DNA from: an uncultured Pelagibacteraceae bacterium
Lineage (GTDB): Bacteria; Pseudomonadota; Alphaproteobacteria; Pelagibacterales; Pelagibacteraceae
Length of the DNA: 64,000 nt
NCBI GenBank assembly: GCA_902525935.1
Contig: CABZJA010000002.1
Location: 40,385-104,384, forward strand
Direction: 5' to 3'
Made by a program: the position numbers and the translations under genes. How positions within the stretch are numbered: the first letter of the stretch is position 1; each line of letters opens with the position of its first letter. The notes under the pieces are model-generated. The model made no database searches and was not told the origin of the DNA. It saw only the letters and a list, made by a program, of their open reading frames with translations. Positions 49,520-60,652 of the stretch are shown piece by piece.

Positions 49520-49800
49520 GTATAATTCGTTTATAAATTAATTAAAGATTAAAAGAATTTGTTGAATAAGACAAAATTCTAAAATAAATTTTTTTTCGAT
49601 CATTTAATTAACATTAAAATTTAGTGTGAATATCTTATTAACAATTTTAAAGCTTTATAAAATAATAAAATAGACCAGTGTTTAAAGGACTTTTTACAAA
49701 GTGGAATGTATAAATAGTTAATAAAATGTTTAAATTGAGTAATTTACGTTATCCACAATACATACTAATAATACAATTAAATATAATTATCTTATTATAA
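49520..49800. other. oriC: Candidate chromosomal replication origin (oriC)
   Basis: 281-bp very AT-rich gap, the longest intergenic space in the window. It has DnaA box TTATCCACA (49749-49757), a one-mismatch box TGTGAATAT (49625-49633, complement ATATTCACA) and a TTAA-N7-TTAA CtrA-like motif (49538-49552). It lies next to hemE, with genes diverging on either side. Confidence 0.65.
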
Positions 49801-50802
49801 ATGACACCAATAAAAGAATGTTTGATAAATAAAAGTACTAAAATTAATCCTATATGGTTAATGAGACAGGCCGGAAGATACCTGCCAGAGTTTAGAGAGA
49901 TTAGAAAAGAAAATCCTAATTTTATTAAATTGTGTTTAAACCCTCATTTATCAGAAGAGATAACGCTACAACCTCTAAAAAGATTTAATTTTGACGCTGC
50001 AATAATCTTTTCAGATATACTAATGGTTCCATATGGCATGGGGCAGTCTGTAGAGTTTAAAAAAAATTTAGGTCCTAGTTTAGGAAATTTCAGAATAACT
50101 GACATTCAAAAAATTACAGAAAATGATTTTAAAAATAATTTATTACCAATATATAAATTATTATCAAATCTAAAGAATAGCAAAGACCTGAACAATAAAG
50201 ATATAATAGGTTTTGTCGGAGCTCCGTGGACATTATTAGTCTATATGCTTAATAAAGTTTCCCCTAAGAATGGTTTACCTAATGATTTTCTCAAAGATAA
50301 AATACTTATAGATGAGATATTAAAATTATTGGATACATTTATTAAAATTCACATAGAAAACCAAATAAATGCTGGGGCTACAATCATTCAAATTTTTGAC
50401 AGTTGGGCTGGTCTTATAAAGAAAGATTTTGACAGGTTTTTATACAATCCAACCTTGTCACTAGTTAATCATGTAAAAAAGCTTGGAGTACCAGTTATAT
50501 GTTTTCCAAGAGGTATATCAGATTATGTAAAATTTTCTAAACTAGTAAAACCTAGTATGATAAATATCGATTACAATGTAGATGCTGAAAATATAGTAAA
50601 ATTATTAGACATACCAATTCAAGGTGGGCTAGATCCAAAATTACTTCTCACAAATAAAGAAATTTTGAAAAGAGAAACACAAAAGTATCTAGAAATATTC
50701 AAAGACCACCCTTATGTATTTAATCTAGGACATGGCATCTTACCTGAAACAGAGGTTGAAATGGTTTACGAATTAATAGAAATAGTAAGAGGTTATAAAT
50801 GA
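49801..50802 (+). CDS. hemE: Uroporphyrinogen decarboxylase
   Basis: PIWLMRQAGRYLPEFREIRKENPNF, FSDILMVPYGMG, GAPWTLLVYML, FDSWAG, GLDPKLLL, NLGHGILPET. Confidence 0.97.
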   Translation: MTPIKECLINKSTKINPIWLMRQAGRYLPEFREIRKENPNFIKLCLNPHLSEEITLQPLKRFNFDAAIIFSDILMVPYGMGQSVEFKKNLGPSLGNFRITDIQKITENDFKNNLLPIYKLLSNLKNSKDLNNKDIIGFVGAPWTLLVYMLNKVSPKNGLPNDFLKDKILIDEILKLLDTFIKIHIENQINAGATIIQIFDSWAGLIKKDFDRFLYNPTLSLVNHVKKLGVPVICFPRGISDYVKFSKLVKPSMINIDYNVDAENIVKLLDIPIQGGLDPKLLLTNKEILKRETQKYLEIFKDHPYVFNLGHGILPETEVEMVYELIEIVRGYK

Positions 50803-58268: not shown

Positions 58269-58909
58269 TTGATTCGAATATTTTAAAATTATATAATGCG
58301 AAATCCATAAATGTTTCACGTGAAACATTAAAGGCGTTAGAAGACTATTCAAATGCAATCATTTCAAGAAATAAAAGAATAAATTTGATCAGTAAAAGCA
58401 CTGAAAATTCCATAAAACAAAGGCATATAGAAGATAGTGCGCAAATTATTGATTTTGTTGATAAAAATGATATAAAAATTTGTACAGATCTAGGGTCTGG
58501 TGCTGGTTTACCTGGTATAGTTTTAGGTATTTTGATGAAACCAAAAAAACCATTATTTAAGATAATTTTCTATGAAAAGAGCTATCACAAAAGTCTTTTC
58601 TTAAGAGAAATGGCAGATAAATTTAGTCTAAATTCAGAAATTCATCGAAAAAATATTTTTGGGGAAAAAGATTTAACAACGGATGTTATAATTTCAAGAG
58701 CATTCAAACCTTTGCCAATAATTTTTCAAATAGCAAAAAATAATTTTAAAAAATTCAAGTATATTATTTTATTTTTAGGTAAGACTGGAAAGACAGTTAT
58801 TGATAATGCGCGTGAGAATTGGAATTTTGATTATGAAAAAAAAAAAAGTTTAACAAGTAACCAATCTTTAATAGTAAAAATTTCAAATCTAAAAAAAAAA
58901 AATGTTTAA
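58265..58909 (+). CDS. rsmG: 16S rRNA (guanine527-N7)-methyltransferase RsmG
   Basis: [72 protein letters not shown] start overlaps the mnmG stop. Confidence 0.96.
58312..58327. promoter_or_regulatory. parS: parS centromere site (ParB-binding)
   Basis: Perfect 16-bp palindrome TGTTTCACGTGAAACA, encoding the NVSRET stretch of RsmG, about 0.7 kb upstream of parAB. Confidence 0.96.
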
Positions 58910-59003: not shown

Positions 59004-59804
59004 ATGGATAAAAAAATAATTTCAGTAATAAATCAAAAGGGAGGAGTGGGCAAAACCACAACAGTAATTAATCTAGCGGCAGGACTATCAATGAAGGAAA
59101 AAAAAGTTTTAGTAATAGACTTAGATCCACAAGGTAATGCTTCAACTGGTCTTGGATTATCTAACACAACTAATTCAGAGAAAAATATTTACAGTGTTCT
59201 AAATGGAAATAAGAAAATTTCAGAGGTTATACAATCATCAAGCTTTGAAAATCTAAATGTAATAACTTCAAATGTTGATTTATCAGGTCTCGAGGTCGAA
59301 ACGGCTGGGGATAGTCGAAGGGCCTTTAAATTAAAAGACGAATTAGGCCTGATTTTAAATGATTCTAGAACACTGTATGATTACATAATAATTGACTGCC
59401 CTCCATCCCTAAGTTTACTTACAATTATGGCATTGGTGGCTTCCGACTCTTTAGTGGTTCCACTGCAGACAGAATTTTTTGCATTAGAAGGACTTACTCA
59501 ACTCATGAAGACTATAGAAAGAATAAAATCCAATTTAAATCCATCATTAGAAATTAGAGGCATACTGCTTACAATGTTTGACAAGCGAAATAAACTTTCG
59601 GGTCAAGTGGAGATAGAGGCAAGGAACTATTTTAAGGAAAAAGTTTACTCAACTGCTGTGCCAAGAAATGTTAGATTGTCTGAGGCACCATCCCACGGCA
59701 TACCTGTCCTGATATATGACAAAATATGTCCTGGAAGTAAGGCTTACTTTGAATTTACTGATGAATTCTTAGAACAAGATAAACCAGTGGAGAGTGCTGC
59801 ATGA
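59004..59804 (+). CDS. parA: Chromosome partitioning ATPase ParA
   Basis: ISVINQKGGVGKTTTVINLAAGL, VLVIDLDPQGNASTGLG, YIIIDCPPSLSLLT. Confidence 0.97.
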   Translation: MDKKIISVINQKGGVGKTTTVINLAAGLSMKEKKVLVIDLDPQGNASTGLGLSNTTNSEKNIYSVLNGNKKISEVIQSSSFENLNVITSNVDLSGLEVETAGDSRRAFKLKDELGLILNDSRTLYDYIIIDCPPSLSLLTIMALVASDSLVVPLQTEFFALEGLTQLMKTIERIKSNLNPSLEIRGILLTMFDKRNKLSGQVEIEARNYFKEKVYSTAVPRNVRLSEAPSHGIPVLIYDKICPGSKAYFEFTDEFLEQDKPVESAA

Positions 59805-60652
59805 TAAATCCTTTTAAAAATAAGAAGGGTTTAGGAAGGGGCCTATCATCACTGATCGGTGATAGTGATATAAAAACATCTAAAGAAAAAATTTCTATAA
59901 GTTCTATAGTTCCAAATAAAAATCAACCTAGAAAATTATTTGAAAAGGAGTCTTTAGAAGAATTAAAAAATTCGATTAGTGAAAGAGGCATAATCCAACC
60001 ATTAATTGTTAGAAAATCAGATGATCAAGACGATAAATTTGAATTAATAGCAGGCGAAAGAAGATGGCAAGCAGCCCAATCAGCTGGCCTTCATGAAGTG
60101 CCTGTAGTTATTATTGAGGCAGATAATCTAAAATCGTTAGAATTAGCAATTATAGAAAACGTTCAGAGAAAAGATCTAAATCCTATAGAGGAGGCTGAAA
60201 GTTACAATAATCTAATTCAAAATTTTGGATATGATCATGAAAAAGTTTCCCAGTTTATTGGAAAAAGTAGATCACATATCTCCAACTCTATTCGTTTACT
60301 GTCTCTTCCAGAAAAGATATTGGACTTGATAAGAAATAATAAAATTTCTCAAGGTCACGCTAAAGTTTTAGTTGGTCTAGAAAATGCCCTTTTATTAGCA
60401 GATAAAATAATTAAAAAAAAACTGTCTGTAAGGCAATTAGAAAGTTTAGTCAGACTTTTTAAAAAGGGATCTAACAATTCTTTCAAGTCAAAGGACTCAA
60501 ATATAATTTCAACGGAAAACGATTTATCTGAGAAAATTGGCATGAGAGTTATTCTAAATAACAAAAAAAATAATTCTGGAACTTTATCATTTGAGTATAA
60601 AGGAATTGATCAGCTTGATAGACTAATTGAAGTTATAAAGAAAAATTATTAA
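59801..60652 (+). CDS. parB: Chromosome partitioning protein ParB
   Basis: GLGRGLSSLIG, IVPNKNQPRKLF, LIAGERRWQAAQSAGLHEVPVVI, ENVQRKDLNPIEEAESY, GKSRSHISNSIRLLSLP. ATGA overlap with parA. Confidence 0.97.
   Translation: MINPFKNKKGLGRGLSSLIGDSDIKTSKEKISISSIVPNKNQPRKLFEKESLEELKNSISERGIIQPLIVRKSDDQDDKFELIAGERRWQAAQSAGLHEVPVVIIEADNLKSLELAIIENVQRKDLNPIEEAESYNNLIQNFGYDHEKVSQFIGKSRSHISNSIRLLSLPEKILDLIRNNKISQGHAKVLVGLENALLLADKIIKKKLSVRQLESLVRLFKKGSNNSFKSKDSNIISTENDLSEKIGMRVILNNKKNNSGTLSFEYKGIDQLDRLIEVIKKNY

Follow-up and report, generated by a model that had tools for sequence, protein, structure and literature searches.

Chromosomal replication origins between hemE and a COG1806 gene have been described for Caulobacter and Rickettsia (PMC1914354). 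CtrA sites vary among the alphaproteobacterial hemE-type origins and are absent in some; in the Caulobacter origin, Cori, the binding of CtrA blocks DnaA (PMC1914354). Another described arrangement is BUS of Bacillus subtilis and others, in which a DnaA box is followed by a spacer and DnaA-trios, the latter being defined by an adenine in the middle position of the complementary strand (PMC8287927). Within the Pelagibacterales, the oriC of Ca. Pelagibacter ubique HTCC1062 was 'manually identified' and assigned for genome plots, and the accessible text of that paper marks only this position, with sequence elements and coordinates absent (PMC4033161). A description of SAR11 origin elements was not found in our literature search, which was of incomplete coverage and had prediction databases such as DoriC outside its range; an element-level map is added here. 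For the oriC of E. coli, Rozgaja reportedly described in 2011 that DnaA sites of low affinity form arrays with close spacing.

The window analysed here is a stretch of 64,000 nucleotides (C2:40385-104384) from a 1.06-Mb Pelagibacterales (SAR11) assembly of 41 contigs. It contains a divergent pair of genes recognised by domain matches, ppsR (COG1806, PF03618; 48698-49519, minus strand) and hemE (PF01208, URO-D; 49801-50802, plus strand), and the intergenic gap of 281 bp between them (49520-49800) is very probably the chromosomal replication origin of this bacterium, judged from its sequence and that of its relatives. A preliminary description of the window had placed a candidate origin beside hemE as in Caulobacter, and the ppsR(-)/hemE(+) boundary is indeed the same in Cori and in the Rickettsia origin (PMC1914354). 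With the origins of Caulobacter crescentus and Rickettsia prowazekii the SAR11 gap shares the divergent boundary genes, an AT-rich gap, several DnaA boxes and a dnaA gene that is not adjacent. It differs in length, about 281 bp versus more than 400 bp (PMC1914354), and is without conserved CtrA sites, without an IHF consensus above chance and almost without GANTC. This compact, DnaA-only layout is a distinctive feature among the known hemE-COG1806 origins. Common to BUS and the SAR11 gap are a strong box, a 4-bp spacer and three or more trinucleotides whose middle base is the required one, and the strong box is likewise abutted by a degenerate one (4 mismatches); in the SAR11 gap, however, the repeat often has A in first place, not the commonest C (3'-GAT-5'), and the downstream box is the closer match. 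The arrays of the E. coli oriC are alike in having weak 9-mers 2 bp apart, in the same orientation and beside a stronger site, whereas SAR11 has a single array of three, predicted weak from sequence.

The intergenic gap and its flanking genes

Left of the gap, ppsR is followed by maf, aroE, coaE and a DnaQ-type exonuclease gene; on the right lie hemE, hemH, rho, mnmE, mnmG, rsmG, parA and parB. The genes directly to the left are encoded on the minus strand and the rightward genes mostly on the plus strand, a layout that had been noted before. The gap had also been called the largest in the window, which is true with small ORFs and a tRNA counted: two longer gaps in the list of ORFs of at least 90 aa contain ORFs of 76, 42 and 85 aa. 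With 17 % GC the gap has an AT content above that of the genome, for which the closed relative G012 (28.5 % GC) served as reference.

By HemE, the relatives are labelled Pelagibacteraceae, Pelagibacter or Pelagibacterales, the nearest with 95 % identity. All 109 family loci with both genes have ppsR and hemE in divergent orientation and a gap length of 254-289 bp, with HemE identities down to ~57 %. In a class-wide sample the pair was divergent in 30 of 30 loci, with gaps of about 336-1116 bp. Close to hemE, conserved columns contain the -10-like hexamer TATAAT (49782-49787, plus strand), which may belong to a hemE promoter; TA.AAT or TATA.T was present at most 30 bp from hemE in 97 of the 106 sequences of relatives.

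Conserved DnaA boxes

The perfect DnaA box TTATCCACA reported in the preliminary description does sit at 49749-49757. A window of this kind is expected to hold 0.66 perfect boxes, and at least one was present in 48 of 100 shuffles; a single perfect box in one window is unremarkable. The motifs of the window alone are near chance and are thus weak evidence. Synteny and gap size are better clues than the motifs cited at first, and the strength of the proposal comes from the comparison with relatives. The conservation of boxes in relatives, a check named beforehand, was found: an alignment of the 106 distinct gap sequences of the family shows islands of conservation with seven conserved DnaA-box positions, two on the plus strand (49605 and 49749) and five on the minus strand (49528, 49625, 49705, 49716 and 49727). 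Scored with the canonical TTATCCACA, the six best positions beat 2000 of 2000 column-permuted controls.

The leftmost predicted box (49528-49536, minus strand) reads TTATAAACG in the window and TTATTAACA in the consensus of the relatives; in 104 of 106 sequences, 8 bp separate it from the start codon of ppsR. For the predicted box at 49605-49613 (plus strand; TAATTAACA in the window) the consensus is again TTATTAACA, with the C of position 8 kept in 104/106. The 'one-mismatch box' claimed at 49625-49633 is a conserved, weaker predicted box by the alignment, yet its mismatches had been miscounted: ATATTCACA on the minus strand deviates twice from TTATCCACA and once from TTATNCACA. Many close relatives have TTATTCACA here, and the position ranks among the weakest of the seven. 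Three weak boxes are predicted as an array on the minus strand, TTATACATT at 49705-49713, TTATTAACT at 49716-49724 and ATTTAAACA at 49727-49735, with the second and the third following in an 11-bp register in 106/106 and 105/106 sequences, respectively. A possible degenerate tandem box with 4 mismatches, TAATTTACG (49740-49748, plus strand), lies in conserved columns and abuts upstream the predicted strong box of 49749-49757 (plus strand). The latter is TTAT[CT][CA]ACA in the relatives, mostly TTATTCACA, and 87 % of them have no more than 2 mismatches in it. The window strain has no perfect box besides this one, and several of its boxes are degenerate, which counts against the reading as oriC.

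In all 61 long loci, the gap was the densest 280-bp window of DnaA boxes. Boxes of the pattern TTATNMACA occurred 3.41 times per gap versus 0.052 times per 280 bp elsewhere, a 65-fold figure that is somewhat circular since the pattern was picked after the alignment was seen; the permutation test, run with canonical TTATCCACA, is free of this circularity. On the 1.34-Mb chromosome of G012 the gap was the only three-box window.

A core of fixed length with a DnaA-trio-like repeat

In 104 of 106 sequences, the stretch from the first weak box (49705) through the strong box to a repeat at 49762 measures 57 bp. The linkers flanking this core vary, 72-86 bp on the left and mostly 34-40 bp in the spacer to hemE. 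A rigid core with flexible flanks would fit a nucleoprotein assembly site more than a plain promoter region. The repeat, ATA CTA ATA ATA (49762-49773, plus strand; complement 3'-NAT-5' x4), is a DnaA-trio candidate and is separated from the strong box by a 4-bp spacer, a distance kept in 86/106. Bases 2 and 3 of its triplets are mostly near-invariant in the 106-sequence alignment and base 1 is variable, a conservation that corresponds in sequence to the DnaA-trio pattern. At least four NTA units were present in 52 % of the relatives versus 2.2 % of shuffles.

The published rule for box, spacer and trios allows up to 2 mismatches in the DnaA box and a spacer of 0-16 bp and demands at least 3 trios (PMC8287927); it was tightened here to NTA units. 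The window conforms with 0 mismatches, a 4-bp spacer and 4 units. At this position, 60 of 109 relatives passed the tightened rule versus 0.5 % of shuffles; the relatives that failed carry shorter or interrupted repeats. A strict scan of the class-wide sample gave 1/30 with 0.5 expected, hence no trio claim is made for the class.

Position on the chromosome

As the window genome is in 41 contigs, GC skew was computed in the closed relatives G012 and G132. In this check, also proposed in the preliminary description, the minimum and the gap were 18-29 kb apart, and about half a chromosome separated the gap from the maximum. The cumulative skew of G012 has its minimum at 1,290,841 and its maximum at 615,774, with the gap at about 1,262,000; the minimum is flat over about 1.24-1.30 Mb (about 60 kb), thus skew by itself cannot exclude positions nearby. 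In G132, which belongs to another genus of the family and of which 0.81 of 1.21 Mb were read, the skew extremes are at 159,778 (minimum) and 771,546 (maximum), and within the part read boxes are densest in the window 141,280-141,340, beside ppsR. The gene after this gap (L269, G132:C1:141308 onward) reads as rho, not hemE (translated start MNLQELKDKSPADL); hemE has moved or was lost in this genome, and the box cluster remains by ppsR. In G012, forks that leave the gap would run in the same direction as 65 % of the coding length, a share above all circular shifts, and the rRNA operon is likewise co-directional.

The parS-parAB locus had been located about 8.5 kb away, in agreement with a perfect parS, TGTTTCACGTGAAACA, at 58312-58327 and with parA and parB at 59004-60652 (plus strand, domain matches). 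This parS, the single perfect one of the window, falls within the reading frame of rsmG, just upstream of parA. In three genomes parS is 7-20 kb from the gap. Of possible terminus markers, dif is reported to be absent from Pelagibacter ubique, as is Xer (PMC2731167).

Alternative readings of the gap

Synteny, boxes of fixed spacing, the uniqueness of the cluster, the skew of two relatives, gene co-orientation and the nearby parS together argue for the gap as oriC, so that the candidate gained support from the comparison with relatives. A very unlikely alternative is that the gap is merely the divergent promoter region of ppsR and hemE, perhaps regulated by DnaA, and that the origin lies elsewhere. 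Promoters can be regulated by DnaA boxes, and the -10-like hexamer just upstream of hemE is conserved; however, the gap outlasts a change of its neighbours, an observation that speaks against a function in either promoter only. In a sister family within the order, ppsR was detected in none of 8 genomes, and 20 loci (L212-L231) keep a gap of 262-275 bp, now between maf and hemE. A conserved block of the CACAGG...CAACTAC type precedes hemE there (ACAACTACTACTACTA in L227); the strict box-spacer-trio rule was passed by 1/20 (L227), and the alignment shows a similar block of box, GG and repeat upstream of hemE. Gap length and the box-plus-repeat layout thus survive the loss of ppsR, and in G132, where hemE is gone, the gap still has the densest cluster of boxes in the part read. 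Seven box positions with an 11-bp array exceed the needs of autoregulation, skew, co-orientation and parS narrow the position of the origin to tens of kb, and no other cluster of at least three boxes exists in G012. An origin adjoining dnaA, as in many bacteria, is extremely improbable. The dnaA gene is found on the same contig 63-72 kb from the gap in six relatives checked, near the broad skew minimum, but the cumulative skew of G012 at dnaA is above the minimum, and the region upstream of G012 dnaA has no TTATNMACA box and no three-box cluster. A skew minimum next to dnaA, which had been named as an observation that would speak against the candidate, was not what the closed relatives displayed.

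The preliminary description had further pointed to a CtrA-like motif, TTAA-N7-TTAA at 49538-49552. The motif is present next to the left box, and a Caulobacter-type origin, in which CtrA bound at this site blocks DnaA, would work as Cori does (PMC1914354); we regard it as highly improbable here. The window holds 15 such motifs versus 17.9 expected, without enrichment, and the aligned site has it in only 10/106 sequences. The closed G012 has four OmpR-family DNA-binding proteins, none of them near the cut-off of the CtrA model, which among the hits was built for Rhodobacterales and may miss a very diverged CtrA; one of the four passes the PhoB cut-off. With a motif at chance level, little conservation and no CtrA recognised in G012, a CtrA site at 49538-49552 was rejected. 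The IHF consensus WATCAN5WTR, a pattern that a diverged site could escape, occurred 0.22 times per gap versus 0.46 times in shuffles, and GANTC was absent in 102 of 106 gap sequences.

A protein of 187 aa, in which an OmpR-type DNA-binding domain was matched but no receiver domain, is encoded at L211:1492-2055 (minus strand), in G012 near 1,244 kb, about 17 kb from the origin gap.

Proposed initiation at the gap

If the gap is the origin, DnaA-ATP would bind the strong box at 49749-49757 and may also fill the three weak boxes spaced by 11 bp (49705-49735) and the left boxes at 49528, 49605 and 49625. From the strong box, DnaA would extend onto the neighbouring repeat (49762-49773) as a single strand. 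The AT-rich stretch before hemE would then open, the helicase could load and two forks would depart in opposite directions. We see an even chance that the SAR11 origin is a pared-down, DnaA-only type, in which the inputs of CtrA, IHF and GANTC are gone, the rigid 57-bp core brings about the opening and DnaA itself mainly sets initiation. If true, DnaA-only initiation applies to one of the most abundant groups of marine bacteria. As a compact natural system, the SAR11 gap allows a test of the minimum that an alphaproteobacterial origin requires. The position of the origin also anchors growth estimates from peak-to-trough read depth in the ocean, which require it.

Skew at fourfold-degenerate sites

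The skews of Pelagibacter have been termed atypical (PMC2031905). In leading-strand genes of G012, fourfold-degenerate sites have a relative excess of C and A on the coding strand, with a difference in GC skew of about -0.06 (95 % CI -0.097 to -0.027); the leading strand usually has a G/T excess instead. The skew at these sites, corrected for coding strand, was considered as a sharper locator of the origin and was dropped, since its sign is reversed, a point against the reading as oriC, and the change points were imprecise. The total cumulative skew of G012 is normal despite the reversed sign at fourfold sites.
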